64,000 nt of DNA from Acetofilamentum sp. (GTDB lineage: Bacteria > Bacteroidota > Bacteroidia > Bacteroidales > DYOH01): assembly GCA_020720625.1 (NCBI GenBank), contig DYOH01000001.1:1-64000 (forward strand). The letters are read 5' to 3'. Each line of letters opens with the position of its first letter. Position 1 is the stretch's first letter. Positions 43,261 through 52,913 of this stretch are shown here, one piece after another. The notes below the pieces were generated by a model. The model was given only the letters and a program-made list of their open reading frames with translations. It was not told where the DNA came from and did no database searches. The translations under genes were made by a program, and so were the position numbers.

Positions 43261-45951
43261 ATGGATATATCAGCGCAACTATTACAATCATATTCAGTCA
43301 ATTTCGACAAACTCATTTATCCTGTTATACTATTGGATGGAGAATATATTATCTATTCGAATAGAGAAGCAATTCGGCTGTTTAATTGTGATTTACCAGA
43401 GCGCCAGAAAAATTCTTTAATCTATTATGTGGATGATTCTTATATGGATTTAATGAGAAATCGATTTGAGAATCTTAAAAATGGTTTGCAAGTACCTGCG
43501 CAATTTACATTGGGAATGAAAATTAGTAATAGCATATTAGTTTTTATAGCTATTTCGTTGGATATCAGTTTAGATGGAATCAAGTATACCCACTTGGTTT
43601 TTTATCCATCGCCCGAGAAGGAAGAGATGGAGCAAAGTACTTCAGAACCTAAAACAATTGGGGCAAACCTAAACTTTTTAAATAAACTTATAGATACAAT
43701 TCCAAATCCAATTTATTATAAAAATCTTGATGGCGTATACATTGGATGTAATCAGGCTTTTGTTGAGTTTATGGGCGTTGGTAAAGAAAAACTTTTAGGA
43801 AAAAAACCGCACGACATGCCATCCATAATTTTAGCCAATATTTATCACGATGGCGATATGAATCTGATTACCAATAAAAAATCAGAAATATATGAAGGTA
43901 AGGCCAGAGATGCTAAAGGAGAAATAAGGGATGTAATGTATTATAAAACTGTTTTCCACGATTCTAAAGGAATTCTTGGCGGAATGGTTTGCACCATGAT
44001 AGATATTACTCGGCAGAAAGAAGCCAGAAGAGAATTAAAAGAAAGCGAGGTACGTGTAAAACTTGCACTCGAAGCATCTATGCTCGGTTTGTGGGATTTA
44101 AATTTATCGCGGCATACAATCTATTTAAGCCCGGAATATCATATTATTTTAGGATACAGTCCAAACGAATTTCAACCTAAATTAGAAGAATGGCTTTCTA
44201 GTTTTTATGATTATAATAACAACAAAATTGAACTATTAAGCGGTTCGTTGCATACCATTAGGGAGAAAATAGATGAAAAGCAATACAAAGTAAAAACCAA
44301 AGATGGAAGTTTTAAATGGGTTTTGCTAAAGGGGAAAATAATTGAACAAGCTTATTCTAAATACGAATATCGAATAACTGGCACTATTCGCGATATTTCG
44401 GCACAAAAAGAAGCAGAATTAGCTGTTCAGGAGAGCGAGATGCGCTTTAGGTCGGTTTTGGAGGCATCTAACGATGCAATTGCCATATTGCTCAATGATA
44501 TTACCTTGGTTTACTGGAATAAAAAGGCCACAGCACTTTTTGGTTATGCACAAGACGAATTATTTAAAGTTGGAGGGTTTACCCAATTATTTGCTCCCGA
44601 CGACTGGCATAAATTCTACCAGATTCTATCTGGCGCAATGCTCAACTCCGAACAAACAACCGTGGAAATCAGCATGAAAAATGCCAATAATATGATTATT
44701 CCAGCATTGGTTACCATTACACCAATTCTTATTAAACGCGAAGTAAATCTTGTTCTTACAATAAAAGACCTAAGCACCGAAATTAAAGCCATGGAGGAAA
44801 AAAAGAAACTCGAAGAACAATTACGCCATGCCCAAAAAATGGAAACTATTGGAACTTTGGCCGGTGGAATTGCGCACGATTTTAATAATATACTTACTCC
44901 TATACTCGGATATACACAAATGGCCATGTCTGATTTGCCAGACCAAAGTCCATTGCTCGAAGATTTGCAGCATGTTTATAAAGCTGCCGGCAGAGCACGC
45001 GATTTGGTAAAACAAATCCTCACTTTTAGCCGTAGATTAGAAACAGAAAAGCTCGTAATTTTTGCACATTTAATTATTAATGAGGTTGTGGGATTAATTA
45101 CCGCTACAATACCAACCAATATAAGAATTAATAAAAAGATACACGCCAAAAACGACCAGGTTTTTATTGCCCCTACACAGCTGCATCAGGTAATTATGAA
45201 TATTTGTACCAATGCCTACCAGGCAATGAAAGAGGATGGAGGCGTGCTTACCATTGAACTCGATGTATTAGACCAACTCTCCATCGAAGAAACAAGTTCA
45301 ACCGGTTTGGCAAGTGGCCAATACGTTAGAATGAAAATTGGAGATACCGGAAAGGGAATAGACCCATCCATTATGAGCAGAATATTTGAACCATTTTTTA
45401 CAACCAAATCAGTAGGAGAGGGCACAGGGCTTGGATTGTCTGTTGCTCACGGAATAATAAAAGACTCAAATGGTTCTATTCAAGTAAAAAGCACAATCAA
45501 TTTTGGAACAGAATTTACTGTCTATTTGCCCAAAAGCAAAGAGGAAACAACCGAGATTAAGACTTCGAAATCTGGATTTGATGCAAAAAAATACAAGGCT
45601 ATTTTAGTCGACGATGATAATGATGTATTATCGCTACTTAAGAAGGTGATGCTCTCCATGGGATTTTATGTGAGCGATTTCATCAAGTCCGAAAATGCAC
45701 GTCAATTTATTCAGAAGGATATACACTCGTTTGATTTGCTTATAACCGATCAGATAATGCCCGATGTACAAGGAATTGACCTTGTAAAATTGGCTAAGGA
45801 GCTTAAACCCGGAATAAAAACAATACTTATCACCGGATACAGCGCCGGTTTAACCGACGAAAATGCAAAGAAAAGCGGAGTTGACAAATTTTTATTAAAA
45901 CCAATAATTATTGATAATTTTGCTGAAACCTTAGCGCAAATATTTAGTTAA
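43261..45951 (+). CDS. Cytoplasmic hybrid histidine kinase: four PAS, HisKA, HATPase, receiver
   Basis: 896 residues without membrane segments. PAS-like domains at about 1-110 (weak), 140-260, 270-385 and 395-505. HisKA has the phospho-His in GGIAHDFNNILTP near 538; HATPase ends with GEGTGLGLSVAHGII near 725. A C-terminal receiver (about 780-896) holds the Asp in LLITDQIMPD near 833 and Lys in FLLKPI. HDFNN-type HisKA and terminal receiver are typical of soluble hybrid kinases. It is followed five bases later by a single-domain receiver, its probable partner. Confidence 0.9.
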   Translation: MDISAQLLQSYSVNFDKLIYPVILLDGEYIIYSNREAIRLFNCDLPERQKNSLIYYVDDSYMDLMRNRFENLKNGLQVPAQFTLGMKISNSILVFIAISLDISLDGIKYTHLVFYPSPEKEEMEQSTSEPKTIGANLNFLNKLIDTIPNPIYYKNLDGVYIGCNQAFVEFMGVGKEKLLGKKPHDMPSIILANIYHDGDMNLITNKKSEIYEGKARDAKGEIRDVMYYKTVFHDSKGILGGMVCTMIDITRQKEARRELKESEVRVKLALEASMLGLWDLNLSRHTIYLSPEYHIILGYSPNEFQPKLEEWLSSFYDYNNNKIELLSGSLHTIREKIDEKQYKVKTKDGSFKWVLLKGKIIEQAYSKYEYRITGTIRDISAQKEAELAVQESEMRFRSVLEASNDAIAILLNDITLVYWNKKATALFGYAQDELFKVGGFTQLFAPDDWHKFYQILSGAMLNSEQTTVEISMKNANNMIIPALVTITPILIKREVNLVLTIKDLSTEIKAMEEKKKLEEQLRHAQKMETIGTLAGGIAHDFNNILTPILGYTQMAMSDLPDQSPLLEDLQHVYKAAGRARDLVKQILTFSRRLETEKLVIFAHLIINEVVGLITATIPTNIRINKKIHAKNDQVFIAPTQLHQVIMNICTNAYQAMKEDGGVLTIELDVLDQLSIEETSSTGLASGQYVRMKIGDTGKGIDPSIMSRIFEPFFTTKSVGEGTGLGLSVAHGIIKDSNGSIQVKSTINFGTEFTVYLPKSKEETTEIKTSKSGFDAKKYKAILVDDDNDVLSLLKKVMLSMGFYVSDFIKSENARQFIQKDIHSFDLLITDQIMPDVQGIDLVKLAKELKPGIKTILITGYSAGLTDENAKKSGVDKFLLKPIIIDNFAETLAQIFS

Positions 45952-45956
45952 ATATT

Positions 45957-46322
45957 ATGAGTAAAATATTAATCGTCGACGACGACCTGGAGATTTCGGG
46001 CTTACTTTTGAAACTGCTTAGCAGGAAAAATTATGAGGTGTTTATTGCTTCATCGGGAGCCGATGCCATACAAATTTTTAACTCCAATCAAATTGATTTA
46101 ATTGTAACAGACATTGTAATGCCCGAAATCGGTGGCCTGGAAGTAATTCGCATTGTAAGAGGAATAAATGAGTCGCTGCCCATAATTGCAATGTCGGGGG
46201 GCGCACTAATAAATTCGGGAACTTATTTAACTATGGCAAAGCAATTAGGGGCAAAATATGCTTTTCAGAAACCCTTTGATTTGAACGAGTTTTCGCTTGC
46301 AGTGCAAAGTTTGATAGGATAA
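45957..46322 (+). CDS. Single-domain response regulator receiver
   Basis: 121 residues. Complete receiver: acidic pair in ILIVDDDLE, phospho-acceptor Asp in LIVTDIVMPE near residue 53, Ser in IAMSGGAL and Lys in FQKPF near 107. No output domain, so it works as a shuttle or by protein contact. It starts five bases after the hybrid kinase stop and is probably phosphorylated by it. Its stop is 16 bases from the convergent kinase gene. Confidence 0.92.
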   Translation: MSKILIVDDDLEISGLLLKLLSRKNYEVFIASSGADAIQIFNSNQIDLIVTDIVMPEIGGLEVIRIVRGINESLPIIAMSGGALINSGTYLTMAKQLGAKYAFQKPFDLNEFSLAVQSLIG

Positions 46323-46338: not shown

Positions 46339-48627
46339 TTAACTAAGTAGCTCAATTTTATTTTCTAATTCTATAATTCCGGTATTTACGGCAGCAATCA
46401 AATTACTCAGATATTCCGGATAGCTATCGGGTTCTTCTGATTCCTTTGCTTTTAACTCAAGGGTTTTCATTTCTGTGGCCATTTCGTTCATACCCACAAT
46501 GGTAAGCGATGATTTTGTTTTATGTGCTATTTCGCTAAGCTGCTTATAATCTTTGTTTTGCAATGCAGTTTCCAATTCTTTTATGTAGATAGGAATTTGC
46601 TCTTTAAAAAGAATTACCATTTCTTTTATAATTTTTATATTACCCCCCGACATGGTTTGCAGGTAGCTAAGATTGGTTATAGAGACTTGGTTTTTTGTGC
46701 TATTTATCATATTACTATTATCATCACTTTTATAGTTTGAAAGGATTGCCGAAATAAGTTCCTCCTCGGAAAATGGTTTTGAAACAAATTTATTCATTCC
46801 CACGGCAAAAGATTTATCGATTTCCGCTTTTGTTGCAGCGGCGGTTAAGGCAATAATTAATGTGTCTTTATTTTCCGGCGAATATTCTCTAATGTGTTTG
46901 GCAACTTCAAATCCATCCTTCACGGGCATGTGCAAATCCAGCAGAATAGCGTTAAATTTTAGCGAATCGGAGGCCACAATTGCTTCGCCGCCATCGTTGG
47001 CGACTGTAAGCTTAACTTTATATTTTTTTAATATCTCTTTGGCCACTAGTTGGTTTAGTTTGTTGTCTTCGGCCAATAATATATTCATTTGTTGCATTTG
47101 ATTGAGCAAGCTTTCGGTTAATATAAATTCATTTTTTTCAATCACAGGTTCATCAGATAGCTCAAAAGGTAATTCAATGGTAAAAACCGATCCGGCATCA
47201 ACTTTGCTTTTCAGGTATATTTTGCCTTTCTGCAATTCTACCAGTTGTTTCGATATAGATAAGCCTAGTCCGGTTCCACCATATTTTCGGGTGGTTTCGG
47301 TACTTTCTTGCTGAAAACTTTCAAATATGGTTTGCTGTTTTTCGGGTTTAATACCTATACCGGTATCACTAATAATGAACTGAAGCAAGGTATAATCTGT
47401 TTCGGCATAGCTAGAAATTACATCTAAACTTACGCTTCCTTTTTCAGTAAATTTAATTCCATTTCCAATAATATTTAACAAAATCTGATTCAAACGAATA
47501 GGATCTCCCAGCAAATGATTATTCACATTGTCATGTATCAGGTATTTTAGTTTAAGGCCTTTTTTATCGGCGCTGTATTTTAAAGTATTAAAAACCTGTT
47601 TCACAATTTTGTTTAGTTGGAAAGGAATATGCTCAATTTGAATATTCCCGCTTTGAATCTTCGAAAAATCGAGAATATCGTTTATGATAACCAATAGATT
47701 TTCGGCAGATACTTTGATATTTTTCAAGTATTTTAATTGCTCAACTGTTAAGTTGCTATCCATTAGTATATTGGTCATTCCTAAAATCGCATTCATCGGA
47801 GTTCTTATTTCATGACTCATGTTGGCCACAAACTGTTCTTTAATTTTAACCAGCTCTAAGGCTTCTTCTTTGGCAGAAACCAATTCGTTATTTTGTATTT
47901 CGATATGCTCGAGCAAATTATTTACATCTGTGGCTAATTTACCCACTTCGTCGTTAGTCTCAATTAATGCTCTTAATTTAAAATTGTTGTCGTTTTTTAC
48001 TTTACTAACAAGTGTTTGAAGGTTTAGCAATGGACTTGTTATAAATCCCTGAAGCTTAAGAGTTAATAAGAATGCAATTAACGAACTGCTAAATATTACA
48101 ATGAGAATAATTTTGATGTATTGCCAGAGTCTTATTTTTATTGGCAAATGCGATTGTATATAAATTGCTCCAATAATATCTTCAGAGAAATGATTAATAT
48201 CGCGAAATTTAATCGATTGAAATACGTTTATTGTATTTCCGTCTACCCAACTGGTATCAATGTTTCTTACTGTGAAATCAAAATTTTTGATATTGTTTTC
48301 TTCTATTGCATAATCGGCAAAGAACTTAAATTTATTGTATTCAGCGTTAATACTAAAAATGGTAACATTTTTTATTACAGGGCTATTTTTTATAGAAGAG
48401 AGATAGGCTTGTGCATTAAAAATGTCTTCAAAAAATATGACCGCCGAGTTACTTTCTCCAAACACTTTTGCAAAAACGCTCAATTCCGAAATCTGATTTT
48501 TTATAAAATTACGATAATCTATGGTGAGAAAAGCAAATGTGGCAGTGATAAGTGTGAAACCGCCAATAAAAGTAATTAGCAGAATTATTTTTAGTCTGAT
48601 GGATAAATCTTTAAAAAGCTTTTTCAT
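46339..48627 (-). CDS. Membrane hybrid histidine kinase with YfiN-like (CHASE8-HAMP) input
   Basis: 762 residues. Two membrane helices (about 12-32 and 169-190) bracket a periplasmic sensor with SELSVFAKVFGESNSAVIFFEDIFNAQAYLSSI and a later VIKNVTIFSINAE, the CHASE8 pattern known from YfiN/DgcN. HAMP at about 190-245, HisKA with His in NMSHEIRTPMNAILG near 275, HATPase ending GTGLGLSISKQLV, a receiver with Asp in AILLDLHMPV near 562 and an HPt domain with His in EIAHKTKSSL near 702. So it is a complete His-Asp-His phosphorelay with a YfiN-type input in place of GGDEF. A yfiR-like gene lies 121 bases upstream in the same orientation. Confidence 0.9.
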   Translation of the reverse strand: MKKLFKDLSIRLKIILLITFIGGFTLITATFAFLTIDYRNFIKNQISELSVFAKVFGESNSAVIFFEDIFNAQAYLSSIKNSPVIKNVTIFSINAEYNKFKFFADYAIEENNIKNFDFTVRNIDTSWVDGNTINVFQSIKFRDINHFSEDIIGAIYIQSHLPIKIRLWQYIKIILIVIFSSSLIAFLLTLKLQGFITSPLLNLQTLVSKVKNDNNFKLRALIETNDEVGKLATDVNNLLEHIEIQNNELVSAKEEALELVKIKEQFVANMSHEIRTPMNAILGMTNILMDSNLTVEQLKYLKNIKVSAENLLVIINDILDFSKIQSGNIQIEHIPFQLNKIVKQVFNTLKYSADKKGLKLKYLIHDNVNNHLLGDPIRLNQILLNIIGNGIKFTEKGSVSLDVISSYAETDYTLLQFIISDTGIGIKPEKQQTIFESFQQESTETTRKYGGTGLGLSISKQLVELQKGKIYLKSKVDAGSVFTIELPFELSDEPVIEKNEFILTESLLNQMQQMNILLAEDNKLNQLVAKEILKKYKVKLTVANDGGEAIVASDSLKFNAILLDLHMPVKDGFEVAKHIREYSPENKDTLIIALTAAATKAEIDKSFAVGMNKFVSKPFSEEELISAILSNYKSDDNSNMINSTKNQVSITNLSYLQTMSGGNIKIIKEMVILFKEQIPIYIKELETALQNKDYKQLSEIAHKTKSSLTIVGMNEMATEMKTLELKAKESEEPDSYPEYLSNLIAAVNTGIIELENKIELLS

Positions 48628-48748
48628 CCGTATATCATTTTTTGTTGAAGCAAATTTGAAATGCCATGCAATTATTTTTTTATAGTTATTCCCTTTTATT
48701 CAGGCACATATTTCTACTTTCTGAAATCATTTAATTTTCATCCTTTTC

Positions 48749-49291
48749 TTATTTATTTGTTGAAATAACTTTTGCTACCGATAGTAGTCTGCTATCAATG
48801 ATTAAGCCATTTTCGCGAGCCTGCACATAGTTTATTTCAAATTTTTTATCTGTCGCATTCTCGTTAAAGTTAATAATTCCTCCATTCTCGCAAAAATTTT
48901 TGATATTATTACCAATAGTAAGTATGGGGTGATTTTGGCTAATTTTTAAGACTTGAGCAATTATTTCAGCATCTAAGGTATTAATAAAAACGATGTTGCA
49001 ACTTAGAATTTCCTCAGGTTTTTTTATATTTGTGATTATCCAATTATTGGGAACTTTGCTTCGGGCTTCAAGCATTTGTTTTAGTACATCTCCAAAAATA
49101 TCTTCTCCTATAATTCCCATCACAACATTTTGATTTTGTACTTGATTTGGCCATACTATAAATTTGGTGAAATTTATGATGTAACCAGCTTTAACCTGCT
49201 CATTGGTAAAAGTTTGCGCTCTGGCATTTTCTGCCAAGGCGCAAAAAATGAAGATAAGAAATACCAAATATATTTTATTCAATTTTTTCAC
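48749..49291 (-). CDS. YfiR-family periplasmic protein (DUF4154)
   Basis: 180 residues starting at GTG 49289-49291, overlapping the upstream stop by three bases. Signal peptide IYLVFLIFIFCALAENARAQ. Family segments: QVKAGYIINFTKFIVWP, MGIIGEDIFGDVL, SCNIVFINTLDAE, HPILTIGN and FCENGGIINFNE...KFEINYVQARENGLIIDSRLLSVAK. In P. aeruginosa YfiR is a periplasmic repressor of YfiN that is sequestered by the OmpA-type lipoprotein YfiB. The mature part has two cysteines (in LSCNIVF and NFCENGG). The kinase downstream carries the YfiN-like sensor, so YfiR probably represses it. Confidence 0.92.
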   Translation of the reverse strand: MKKLNKIYLVFLIFIFCALAENARAQTFTNEQVKAGYIINFTKFIVWPNQVQNQNVVMGIIGEDIFGDVLKQMLEARSKVPNNWIITNIKKPEEILSCNIVFINTLDAEIIAQVLKISQNHPILTIGNNIKNFCENGGIINFNENATDKKFEINYVQARENGLIIDSRLLSVAKVISTNK

Positions 49292-51744
49292 TTTCTGATA
49301 TCAAAAATCTTGATGATTATAAAATAATATTTATTGTTGTTTTCCGCTGTGAGCAAATCCGGCTTAAATGTGGTTTGCAGTATAGAATTTTGGCAATCGC
49401 AGCCGTTTTTTTGCAGAAATTCATGTACCATCATCGATTTTGATTTTAGGGCATTAATTTCCTTTATTCTATCTACTTCGGCATTAAACGAAATTGCCTC
49501 AATGCTTATGTATAAATATGGGTTTTCGTTAATTAGCTGTATTACATCAAACAATAAATTAAAATATTCCGGTGAAACGCTTGTTTGATTTACATCAATT
49601 TTCATTTCGTATTGAAAAACAAGGGTATTTGTCGATTTAGTAGAATCTGCATCAATAAGCGATTGAATTTGATTTGCACCTGTAATATCTGTAATTCTTT
49701 GTGCACTGATGTTTTTAAATGCTTTTAAAGGTGGTGCCGTGAAAATGGTGTCTCCTTCAATTACTATGAAATGTTTTTTTGTGGCAAGGGAAGAATGATA
49801 GCTGTGCGAGTAAATTTCGGTTTTCTCGCTTTTCTCAAATAATTGATTAATGGTAGCTGTATCTGTATTAATGATGCTGTTTTCGATTAATAATAATAAA
49901 TCGTTCAATTGCGATTCTGCTCCAATAGTACCATTGCTCTCTTCTGTTTCTTGATTTAATGATTGTTTTACATAGCTGTTTATGGAATCTATTTTGCCAC
50001 TTACGTCATAAAACAGATTTTGCATTTCGCTTAAGTATCCTGTGATGGAATCGTTGGCCAATTTTCCTAAATCGTAGAAATTGTTTTTTACCGTAATTTC
50101 GGCTGCTTCTAATTGAGTACTGTCTGTAAATGGTTGTAAGCTTATGCTTTGAAATATTTGATAGAAATATTCCTGTTTAGGAACTTCAATGGTAATTTTT
50201 TGCGGTTTATATCCTTCGGCTTCAAAGAGTAAATCATATACCTTTCCGGGCTCAAATATGATAAAATATTTTCCAAGTGCTTTTTGCGATGTAAAACTGT
50301 ATTTTATTTTCTCCTTTGTAGATGTTTCAATTACAGATAGCTTTAGGTTTACAGGTTTTGGCGGATTGCCTGCCTGAAAAGTGCCGTTGAGTAGCGTTAG
50401 TGGAATGCTCTCATTTAGTTTTACGCTATATAAATCGTGCAGACGAATATTTCTTTTCTGATTACTTGAGTAGAATGCCAGGTTATTGGTGGTTGATGTT
50501 GTAAATGAGCGGTTGTTACCAACAGTATTTATTGCGAATCCTATGTTTTGTGCATTTCCGGTTTTGTTTTTTACCATCGGGCTCATAAAAATATCGAATC
50601 CGCCCATACTTTGGTACGACGATGAGCTAAAATAAAGCATCATGTTTTTGCGGTTAAAAAATGGATCAATTTCGTCGAGGGCTGTATTTATTACTTCCAG
50701 ATTTACAATAGAATCCCATGTTCCGTTATGTTTTTGGTCTATTTTATATATATCATACCCTCCTTTGCCGCCGGCTCTGGAGCTGCTGAAATATATTTCT
50801 TTATTGTTTTTTCCAAAAGAAATTCTTCCGTCGCCTTTTTGTAAAAAACTATAATTAAGTGGTTGTAGCTCAATTACTTTGTCTCCACTAATTTTGCATA
50901 GATATACAGAACTTTCATTGGGTGTGTCTTTATAAATGAGCAAATTTTCCTGCTCAAAATCCATTCCTGCAATTCTAATATTTTGTACATTTTGCATAAA
51001 ACTATTCGGAAACTCCAGAATTTTAGATTTTGTCCAGATTCCAAATTCATTCCTGCTCAGCATTATTTGGTTTCGGTTTTTCTTTAGGGAATCTTTTTCG
51101 AAATATAGAATAGTGCCATCAAAATTTACTACAACATTAATTTCGTCGTGGGCTTCGTTATTTATATTGCCTCTTAGACCACTTATTTCCGAGTATATTG
51201 TATCTTTTATTATTGACTGAGCATTTAAGGATGCATTTATCATCATTTTTGTATAGCCATAGAACTCGTCTTTGTTGCTAACCTTTTCAAGGTATTTATT
51301 AAAGTAATATATTGCTTTAGCAAATTGATAATCTAAATAATATAGCCTGCCTAAATCTTTATATATAATGGTAGGAGTATTGGAATATCCCGACTCCAGA
51401 ACGTATTCAATATAGGGTAGGGCGGTTTGCGGATCGCCATTTTTTTCGAGATGACATACAGCAATCAGATACTTTACATAAACTTGCTCTATATTAATAA
51501 ATTGAGAATCAATAAAGAACTGAAAGTTTTCGGAATTTTTCAAAAATTGAGGGGCTTTTAAAGAATCGAGTTCATATAAAATAGCCAAAGCTTTATCATA
51601 GTTTTCTTCGTAAATATAGTCAAGGCTTCTGTAAAAGTTTTTTTCATAAAGCTTTTTGTCAACCTGTTGAGCGTTTAAAAGCGTTTGGGTAAACAAAAAT
51701 AGTAATAAAGTAAGCAGCTGAAAAAGATTTTTATTTGGTCCCAT
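49288..51744 (-). CDS. PorE-like TPR/PD40 protein with a degenerate OmpA-like C-terminus
   Basis: 818 residues with signal peptide (LLTLLLFLFTQTLLNAQQ). TPR-like helices at about 25-190, PD40 propeller strands at about 200-440 (EIYFSSSRAGGKGGYDIY, LYFSSSSYQSMGGFDIFMS), a carboxypeptidase-regulatory beta domain at about 455-550, a helical linker, then about 735-818 with the OmpA spacing: LLFDVIQLINENPYLYISIE, then LKSKSMMVHEFLQKNG. The usual HTD before the loop and the RA pair are replaced (AIS, SK), so peptidoglycan binding is doubtful. It overlaps the yfiR-like gene, in the place YfiB holds in YfiBNR systems. Confidence 0.82.
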   Translation of the reverse strand: MGPNKNLFQLLTLLLFLFTQTLLNAQQVDKKLYEKNFYRSLDYIYEENYDKALAILYELDSLKAPQFLKNSENFQFFIDSQFINIEQVYVKYLIAVCHLEKNGDPQTALPYIEYVLESGYSNTPTIIYKDLGRLYYLDYQFAKAIYYFNKYLEKVSNKDEFYGYTKMMINASLNAQSIIKDTIYSEISGLRGNINNEAHDEINVVVNFDGTILYFEKDSLKKNRNQIMLSRNEFGIWTKSKILEFPNSFMQNVQNIRIAGMDFEQENLLIYKDTPNESSVYLCKISGDKVIELQPLNYSFLQKGDGRISFGKNNKEIYFSSSRAGGKGGYDIYKIDQKHNGTWDSIVNLEVINTALDEIDPFFNRKNMMLYFSSSSYQSMGGFDIFMSPMVKNKTGNAQNIGFAINTVGNNRSFTTSTTNNLAFYSSNQKRNIRLHDLYSVKLNESIPLTLLNGTFQAGNPPKPVNLKLSVIETSTKEKIKYSFTSQKALGKYFIIFEPGKVYDLLFEAEGYKPQKITIEVPKQEYFYQIFQSISLQPFTDSTQLEAAEITVKNNFYDLGKLANDSITGYLSEMQNLFYDVSGKIDSINSYVKQSLNQETEESNGTIGAESQLNDLLLLIENSIINTDTATINQLFEKSEKTEIYSHSYHSSLATKKHFIVIEGDTIFTAPPLKAFKNISAQRITDITGANQIQSLIDADSTKSTNTLVFQYEMKIDVNQTSVSPEYFNLLFDVIQLINENPYLYISIEAISFNAEVDRIKEINALKSKSMMVHEFLQKNGCDCQNSILQTTFKPDLLTAENNNKYYFIIIKIFDIRK

Positions 51745-51746
51745 TT

Positions 51747-52829
51747 TTATTTTTTAGAATCTTCTTGTTTTAAGTTGGTTTTTAGAATTGTACTAATGAT
51801 ATTGTCGAAAAGTTTAAAAATAAACTCTACACTGTAACCTGCTAGAAATGCCACTGCCAGAGGCGATAAATTGGCGATAAAACTTTGGCTTAATTCAGAG
51901 CGATCACCCCAGAATAATCCTACCATTAATCCCAGTAGTGCTCCCAAATTAATTCGTAAAGTATAATTTATGCGTGATTCATGTGAGAATAGCATTTTTT
52001 CGATTTCGGTTGTAAGATTTCTGAGCACAAAAGCAAATCCGCCCAATAACCCATATAGCAAAGGTAGAATATAAATATTGAGAATAAGGTTTGTATTGTT
52101 GGCCGATTGAAGCACATCCACCCGTTCCATATATGCTGGGTTTTGCCCAGGCATCATCATCATGTCGCCGGAGGCAATACCTCCTTGTTCTATTTGTGTT
52201 TCTGGAGTGTCTTTTCTAAATCTGAGAAATTCAAGATTATGCAAGGATTCCAATAATTTGATGCTACTATTTTTTTCGTTTTCGAGTTCTTCAAATTCGC
52301 TTTGCAGGATTCCAATTTGCAAACTTGTTCTTTTATTGGTCGATTTATCTATCAGGTTAAGATCGGAAACCTGAACCTCTATTTCCTTCATTCGAATGCT
52401 GGCTTTTTCAATGCTTTTGAGCAAAGTGGTGCCAATTACACTATAAATTTGCAAAATAAGCATTACAGCCATTGATAACAAGGCAAATGTTGTATAGAGT
52501 TTTACTGCGGAATGGGCAAGTGCAGGTTTAATTTTTTGTTTTATGAGTTTTTGCCATAGCGTAGGTGAGTTTATTGGTTGTTCGATGGTTGCTAAAAGGC
52601 TGTTGATGGTAACTGGATGAATCAATTTTACCATTTTTTGATAAGTATGCCAGAATTTAGCTTCCTCTTCGGGAGTCCATTTGTTTTCGCTGTTCAATTG
52701 TTTGGCTTTGGTCAGGATATTAATCTGATCTTCACTAATATCAATACCATGTTCTGCAATGTAGGAGAGTAAAAGCTGGGAATGTTGCACTGCTTCGCTT
52801 AAAAGCTGATTATTCACTGTGTTTGCCAT
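51747..52829 (-). CDS. Multi-pass membrane protein of unknown function
   Basis: 360 residues from ATG 52827-52829. A soluble N-terminal part (about 1-105, with EEEAKFWHTYQKMVKLIHPVT), a membrane helix at about 110-135 (LYTTFALLSMAVMLILQIYSVI), a coiled coil (about 140-215), a Met-rich spot (GDMMMMPG), then helices at about 250-275, 295-315 and 325-345. I recognise no family. It lies two bases upstream of the PorE-like gene and is almost certainly in the same operon as the YfiR-like protein. Confidence 0.7.
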   Translation of the reverse strand: MANTVNNQLLSEAVQHSQLLLSYIAEHGIDISEDQINILTKAKQLNSENKWTPEEEAKFWHTYQKMVKLIHPVTINSLLATIEQPINSPTLWQKLIKQKIKPALAHSAVKLYTTFALLSMAVMLILQIYSVIGTTLLKSIEKASIRMKEIEVQVSDLNLIDKSTNKRTSLQIGILQSEFEELENEKNSSIKLLESLHNLEFLRFRKDTPETQIEQGGIASGDMMMMPGQNPAYMERVDVLQSANNTNLILNIYILPLLYGLLGGFAFVLRNLTTEIEKMLFSHESRINYTLRINLGALLGLMVGLFWGDRSELSQSFIANLSPLAVAFLAGYSVEFIFKLFDNIISTILKTNLKQEDSKK

Positions 52830-52913
52830 CGGCCTTTGATTAAATAAAACAATCACTACCCAGATGCACTAAGTAGCGTTGATAAGATATAATTTTTTTT
52901 GCGAATTTAAGCA

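Follow-up and report, generated by a model that had tools for sequence, protein, structure and literature searches.

Can YfiR, which has been studied as a brake on the synthesis of cyclic di-GMP (c-di-GMP) (see the YfiR passages of PMC3375315 and PMC4887326), act through a different kind of output? The question is raised by a locus on the minus strand of contig DYOH01000001.1 from Acetofilamentum sp. (Bacteroidota), in which genes for a PorE-like protein, a YfiR homologue and a hybrid histidine kinase follow one another in that order. We analysed the first 64,000 nucleotides of this contig (the window). The cassette is real and conserved in Bacteroidota, and we assign a probability of roughly 0.53 to its being an envelope switch like the YfiBNR system of Pseudomonas aeruginosa, with a His-Asp-His phosphorelay as output in place of c-di-GMP synthesis. 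The three-part anatomy put forward in the original prediction, which was made from the DNA sequence alone, was recovered as claimed: the GTG start of the YfiR gene lies over the TGA stop of the PorE-like gene in a 4-base overlap (GTGA), the gap between the YfiR and kinase genes is 121 bases, and the coordinates are as follows.

49288..51744, minus strand: PorE-like protein, 818 amino acids, the proposed outer partner of YfiR
49291..49701, minus strand: C-terminal stretch of the PorE-like protein, residues 682-818, predicted OmpA fold (AlphaFold, Foldseek, alignment columns)
48749..49291, minus strand: YfiR homologue (DUF4154), 180 amino acids (Pfam, NCBIfam, PDB YfiR alignment)
46339..48627, minus strand: hybrid histidine kinase, 762 amino acids, transmembrane segment (TM)-CHASE8-TM-HAMP-HisKA-HATPase-REC-HPt
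48292..48489, minus strand: CHASE8 match, kinase residues 47-112, below the Pfam cut-off, with a DgcN profile match
48430..48444, minus strand: AVIFF, kinase residues 62-66, counterpart of AAVVF by alignment to DgcN
47899..48045, minus strand: HAMP, kinase residues 195-243, slightly under the Pfam cut-off
47647..47841, minus strand: HisKA, kinase residues 263-327, with H272 (Pfam and motif)
47161..47508, minus strand: HATPase_c, kinase residues 374-489 (Pfam)
46744..47082, minus strand: receiver, kinase residues 516-628, with D564 (Pfam and motif)
46387..46623, minus strand: HPt, kinase residues 669-747, with H702 (Pfam and motif)

The cassette shares with YfiBNR and with the YfiR-DgcN-YfiB system of Escherichia coli a YfiR-family protein, a CHASE8-HAMP receptor with its contact motif, and an OmpA-fold partner (predicted here), all in one cluster. 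It differs from YfiBNR in having kinase, receiver and HPt domains where the latter has GGDEF, in a genome with no GGDEF match, and from YfiB in that its outer partner is large, PorE-like and without a lipobox, and has lost the wall-binding residues.

Conservation of the cassette and its phosphorelay kinase

The window YfiR finds matches in 17 of 41 genomes (its own and those of relatives), and the four nearest YfiR-bearing genomes beyond its own contain the same three genes in the same order (L055, L056, L057 and L058). Scanning named genome contigs with the same query gave 129 confirmed loci. The best 80 of these, picked by likeness to the window YfiR and with neighbours called by phmmer with single reference sequences, comprise 45 loci from other phyla and 35 from Bacteroidota, the latter including the contigs of the four related clusters (L067, L071, L096 and L098 for L055, L056, L057 and L058). 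Across the Bacteroidota loci, a PorE/OmpA gene is found upstream in 33 of 35, a CHASE8 kinase downstream in 33 of 35 and both in 31 of 35, so that the gene cluster is not a product of chance. The clustering of all three genes that had been anticipated for Bacteroidota is thereby borne out. A less biased sample is provided by 295 genomes of the class, drawn independently of the window YfiR. When these were searched with the NCBIfam family NF053592 (HK_near_YfiR_like, 'sensor histidine kinase, YfiR-like protein-associated'), a YfiR gene preceded 18 of the 26 highest-scoring matches (at least 106 bits) by 35-167 bases, in the same orientation. The majority of YfiR genes in this class draw, among the matches listed, are not adjacent to an NF053592-type kinase.

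A 369-residue gene upstream of the cassette (51747-52856) was considered as a fourth part and was excluded because it is present in only one of the four related clusters, that of the same genus.

HisKA, HATPase_c, Response_reg and Hpt all score above their Pfam cut-offs in the window kinase, and this single protein carries the relay residues H272, D564 and H702 together with the N, G1 and G2 boxes, as expected of a hybrid phosphorelay. The SHE.R motif of HisKA is present in all 33 Bacteroidota cassette kinases and the receiver motif in 31, the other two being cut by contig ends. The HPt domain is part of the kinase protein in 22 of 32 loci (L067-L098), is encoded by a separate gene just after it in 7 and was not found in 3, two of which are cut by a contig end (four loci of this tally were checked by Pfam). 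TorS-, ArcB- and BarA-type hybrid kinases have the same HisKA-HATPase-REC-HPt core; in contrast to these, the window kinase has a probable CHASE8 sensor and a YfiR neighbour, and it scores below all three of the corresponding NCBIfam cut-offs. On the plus strand of the window (43261-46322), genes for a PAS hybrid kinase and for a single-domain receiver point towards the cassette kinase gene and could encode a relay partner. A similar pair adjoins the cassette in G001 and G002.

No GGDEF domain was found in any of the 41 genomes, 36 of which meet a 90% complete/5% contaminated mark, in a search whose controls were positive in 8 of 14 cases; the window's own draft genome, in which GGDEF was likewise not found, is 98.5% complete. 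Among the 295 class genomes, 7 have GGDEF and 119 have YfiR, and 117 of these 119 have no GGDEF. Only G236 and G287 have both, and their GGDEF frames are just 57 and 71 amino acids long. Given the lack of GGDEF matches, YfiR very likely does not act through a GGDEF enzyme in the window's genome. The substitution of a HisKA-HATPase-REC-HPt relay for GGDEF, as originally claimed, is thus upheld by the Pfam domains, by the three relay residues, and by the rarity or absence of GGDEF in the group.

Sensor, YfiR and outer protein

The CHASE8 call (PF17152) for the kinase sensor holds at the level of the family. The whole window kinase matches CHASE8 with E 0.0022 and 18.7 bits, and the sensor piece alone with E 5.4e-4 and 20.6 bits, under the Pfam cut-off of 27; HAMP scores 21.6 bits against a cut-off of 25. 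With such scores, a secure call from this single sequence was rejected. We nevertheless read the sensor as probably of the YfiN type, because every one of 31 aligned sensors from the cassettes reaches E <= 0.01 against CHASE8 (best 8e-16), and because this alignment, used as a profile, hits E. coli DgcN (YfiN) with E 1.1e-10 over 217 columns. The CHASE8-HAMP membrane receptor of the original prediction therefore stands for the family and falls short for the window kinase on its own; its two membrane helices are seen as hydrophobic segments at residues 14-32 and 171-189 on either side of the sensor. The 31 sensors are those of the window and of 30 of the 33 Bacteroidota CHASE8 loci (alignment A6) and include some near-copies, forming 29 groups at 90% identity and 22 at 70%. 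The kinases of L088, L094 and L095 were left out for want of a clean start and nevertheless match in the neighbour search. The predicted structure of the window sensor has a mean predicted local distance difference test score (pLDDT) of 82.9, and its Foldseek matches include sensor proteins such as WalK as well as weak matches (E 3e-3 and worse) to a LapD-like output domain and CitA. Searched by sequence against the PDB, the sensor gave HAMP-type matches and one weak unrelated match.

Kinase residues 62-66 (AVIFF) align with the AAVVF stretch of YfiN in the alignment to DgcN. A passage of Malone et al. 2012 (PMC3375315) proposes that AAVVF binds YfiR. All 31 sensors have Phe or Tyr at the last position of the motif, and 29 of 31 have Ala at the first (Ala62).

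The YfiR homologue matches DUF4154 (YfiR/HmsC-like) with E 4.2e-33, over the Pfam cut-off, and is in this respect a YfiR of the YfiBNR kind; an alignment of five members matches the P. aeruginosa YfiR structures in the PDB with E 9e-7 and E. coli YfiR with E 1.6e-7. Its N terminus resembles a signal peptide (hydrophobic residues 7-25), which suggests a periplasmic location. PMC4887326 names cysteines of P. aeruginosa YfiR, from which we derived a residue mapping. By this mapping, all 36 YfiR sequences have Phe at the counterpart of F162, Leu at that of L181 and a hydrophobic residue at that of L183, and all 36 conserve C134. NCBIfam already describes a pair of the same kind, in that NF053592 covers the same N-terminal kinase region and NF053591 (TOL_0243 family YfiR-like) the same kind of YfiR neighbour. 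Both window proteins score under the cut-offs: 124.6 bits against 194 for the kinase (profile positions 1-222 of 223) and 91.5 bits against 125 for YfiR.

The PorE-like protein also has a signal-peptide-like N terminus (hydrophobic residues 7-25), with no lipobox pattern there; a loose lipobox pattern is matched by its counterparts in L073 and L097. No Pfam domain scores over the cut-off in the window protein, in which tetratricopeptide repeat (TPR), propeller and TTR-like matches are weak and below the cut-off, and neither OmpA nor PD40 is matched. Among the 30 aligned members, however, OmpA and the PD40 propeller repeats are each matched by 26 (E <= 0.001), and the aligned C termini, taken as a profile, hit E. 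coli YfiB with E 4.8e-10. The AlphaFold model of the last 137 residues of the window protein has a mean pLDDT of 83.6, and its Foldseek matches are OmpA-like domains that include YfiB and the C-terminal domain of PorE (6top). We therefore predict an OmpA fold at this end, so that the OmpA assignment, which fails in a Pfam search with the window protein, is sustained by relatives, the YfiB alignment and the modelled fold. A long protein with a C-terminal OmpA-like domain recalls the type IX secretion system (T9SS) proteins PorE (PG1058) and CHU_0125, and PG1058 is called a predicted lipoprotein in PMC5053529, in the passage concerned. The window protein differs from them in lacking a lipobox, in sitting with YfiR and a kinase, and in scoring far below the NCBIfam cut-offs (76.5 bits against 600 for PorE, NF052230; 75.4 against 620 for CHU_0125). 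T9SS membership was rejected on the PorE score.

Within the OmpA-domain alignment, 26 of 30 rows retain the Asp that binds meso-diaminopimelic acid, and 27 of 30 retain the Arg. The window protein has Phe at this peptidoglycan-pocket Asp and Lys at the Arg, and its same-genus relative has Glu and Lys; L071 and L098 have Gln and Asn at the Asp position, and L123 has Lys at the Arg position. With the peptidoglycan-binding residues lost, the OmpA domain of the window lineage is likely to bind YfiR or to act as an anchor, and not to sense the wall, and the altered pocket could offer a way to separate YfiR capture from peptidoglycan binding. The YfiB-like role proposed for this protein thus retains the predicted fold and loses the rest of the resemblance to a small lipoprotein with an OmpA domain, since the protein has 818 residues, no lipobox and neither pocket residue. 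The alignment of PorE-like proteins (A4) holds the window and 29 of 33 loci, without L086, L092 and L101 (contig ends) and L107 (a different OmpA protein of 435 residues); that of OmpA domains (A5) holds the window and 29 loci, a partly different set, without L073 (no OmpA match), L086, L095 and L107. PorE-like proteins of L073 and L080 extend further at the C terminus; by eye the added part resembles SPOR, and Pfam gives no such match for it.

A proposed envelope switch and its alternatives

If the cassette works as a YfiBNR-like switch, YfiR would be secreted to the periplasm, bind the CHASE8 domain of the kinase at AVIFF and set the activity of the kinase, while the PorE-like protein would sit in the outer envelope and compete for YfiR. 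A change in the envelope would then free or load the kinase, and phosphate would be handed from H272 to D564, then to H702 and finally to a response regulator. Repression by YfiR and its sequestration by the outer partner, as well as the polarity, relay route and target, are putative here. The conserved gene order, the domains, the relay residues, the interface motif, the OmpA matches of the outer partners in relatives, the absence of GGDEF and the YfiR-SpoIIE fusions of the same genome (see below) all support this reading, and the co-divergence of YfiR, sensor and PorE-like protein (also below) supports it weakly. Such a cassette would give Bacteroidota a candidate route for envelope stress in which sensor, outer partner and relay are all defined.

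Several observations weigh against it. The window kinase lies below the curated cut-offs of both CHASE8 and NF053592, and the equivalent of V160, part of the patch of YfiR proposed to bind YfiN, is mostly polar. The window OmpA domain lacks the pocket Asp and Arg and the protein lacks a lipobox, and outer-membrane anchoring and peptidoglycan binding are both called essential for YfiB in the relevant part of PMC3375315; YfiB is also described, in the structural passage of PMC4887326, as owing most of its grip on YfiR to an N-terminal segment (F48, W55 and F57). Two of the 35 Bacteroidota loci (L076 and L077) have YfiR and the kinase without an upstream PorE/OmpA match, two others (L107 and L123) have the outer protein without a CHASE8 kinase, and in 29 of the 45 loci outside Bacteroidota the upstream gene is TonB-dependent-receptor-like (both of the two checked by Pfam are receptors), which together indicate that the outer partner is not fixed. 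Finally, 6 of the 26 strong NF053592 matches, 24 of which could be compared by eye with YfiR among the matches listed, have no neighbouring YfiR, including L059 in the window's own genome, where it is a third CHASE8 kinase with no YfiR near.

An unlikely but serious contender is a two-part sensor in which YfiR senses a ligand or the redox state for the kinase and the PorE-like protein is a structural or transport protein, merely co-transcribed or a target of the system. It would account for the YfiR genes that sit beside a CHASE8-type kinase without an upstream PorE/OmpA match (L011, L060 and L065 as well as L076 and L077), for the receptor-like upstream genes of other phyla and for the lost wall-binding residues, and the invariant C134 fits a discussion in PMC3375315 of P. 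aeruginosa YfiR as a possible YfiB-independent redox sensor. However, the upstream PorE/OmpA gene is nearly constant in Bacteroidota, overlapping YfiR in the window and adjoining it elsewhere, and YfiB, a known YfiR-capturing protein, has the same fold. Co-divergence of YfiR and PorE also speaks against a bystander role: partial correlations of distances, controlled for the kinase core (n = 26, from the 30 rows of A4), are 0.59 for YfiR-PorE, 0.47 for YfiR-sensor and 0.30 for YfiR-OmpA, with 0.64 for sensor-PorE and 0.41 for sensor-OmpA. This is weak evidence, because shared ancestry is only partly removed.

The polarity could also be reversed, with YfiR a required, ligand-like co-activator of the kinase that the PorE-like protein delivers or presents. 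YfiR domains fused ahead of SpoIIE outputs (see below) show that YfiR can be a permanently attached input and does not have to be a repressor that can be taken away, which lends this arrangement some plausibility; we hold it to be improbable, given that the interface motif is conserved and that the YfiR systems treated in the consulted parts of PMC3375315 and PMC4887326 have YfiR as a repressor. The low CHASE8 and NF053592 scores would suit an ordinary hybrid kinase beside unrelated envelope genes, yet the genes cluster across families and phyla in a conserved order, and this last explanation is very improbable.

YfiR beyond the cassette

The exchange of output domains is itself already known, which overturns the original assessment that no example had been described: besides NF053592, Malone et al. 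2012 report in silico YfiN homologues in which GGDEF is replaced by GGDEF-EAL, HPt, sensor kinases or a methyl-accepting chemotaxis protein (MCP) (PMC3375315, passage on homologues). Those homologues resemble the present cassette in pairing YfiR with a YfiN-type sensor that has a kinase, HPt or MCP output. Almost all such divergent operons are said in the same passage to lack a yfiB homologue, in contrast to the Bacteroidota loci described here, 33 of 35 of which have a PorE/OmpA-type gene upstream. Among titles and the beginnings of abstracts in the open-licence literature, we found no experimentally studied YfiR-kinase pair and no description of the conserved PorE/OmpA partner, the STAS gene after the kinase, the YfiR-SpoIIE fusions, the OmpA-YfiR-MCP trio or the GGDEF-free setting. 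Searches with loose terms for YfiR paired with SpoIIE, a STAS domain, PorE or Bacteroidota gave none among the matches listed.

The window's genome has nine YfiR matches, the window copy included. One adjoins a second CHASE8-type kinase (L011) and one has no recognised kinase or OmpA gene nearby (L010). Five of the nine (L012-L016) combine YfiR with a SpoIIE phosphatase domain in one protein, joined by what appears by eye to be a coiled coil and a membrane segment, and three of these also carry PAS domains. A further copy belongs to an OmpA-YfiR-MCP trio (L009:5847-9674), with a neighbouring gene that is ABC-transporter-like by eye. This trio is otherwise seen only in G002 (L066:14556-18671), where it has the same kind of neighbour and where the OmpA gene was judged by its end motif rather than by Pfam. 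We rejected the idea that the trio is a second widespread cassette: in the 295 class genomes, 19 other loci hold the best relatives of its OmpA protein, and none of them has a YfiR or MCP match in the flanks of at most 1.5 kb covered on each side.

A STAS gene follows the kinase directly in 18 of the 32 loci L067-L098 (for example, L069:10791-11126 and L078:10795-11139; two loci of this tally were checked by Pfam). Seventeen of these genes contain IDS(S/T)G, which we take to be the phosphorylatable site of anti-sigma-factor antagonists; the stretch is cut off in the remaining one. No STAS gene was found beside the kinase in L067, L071 or the window, and the window's genome has two STAS frames elsewhere (113 and 126 amino acids). 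Together with the separate HPt genes, the frequent downstream STAS suggests that the relay output of these relatives may also touch a STAS/SpoIIE partner switch.

We tentatively propose, at somewhat under even odds, that Bacteroidota YfiR is a general periplasmic adaptor uncoupled from c-di-GMP, which serves a phosphorelay with a PorE/OmpA partner and with STAS proteins beside the relay, a chemoreceptor with an OmpA partner, and SpoIIE phosphatases by fusion. If so, one YfiR module would feed the state of the envelope into two-component, chemotaxis and partner-switch pathways. A role for YfiR as a general envelope-to-cytoplasm adaptor was supposed by Malone et al. 2012 (PMC3375315, in the part consulted), and a conserved YfiR cassette in genomes without detectable GGDEF proteins offers a clean test of it.

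Outside Bacteroidota, a sensor-or-HAMP match lies downstream of YfiR in 40 of the 45 loci, and 25 of the 45, from Acidobacteria, Proteobacteria and others, have a receptor-like gene, YfiR and a CHASE8-type receptor in a row. Thirty-nine of the 46 downstream proteins aligned from the 48 loci L099-L146 (alignment A7; L120 and L139 have no room downstream) match CHASE8 in Pfam, and the one in L105 is a CHASE8 chemoreceptor. Near the cassette in one of the four related genomes (L096:5618-7774), genes for a phosphotransferase with a RapZ C-terminal domain and a nucleotidyltransferase recall amino-sugar recycling.

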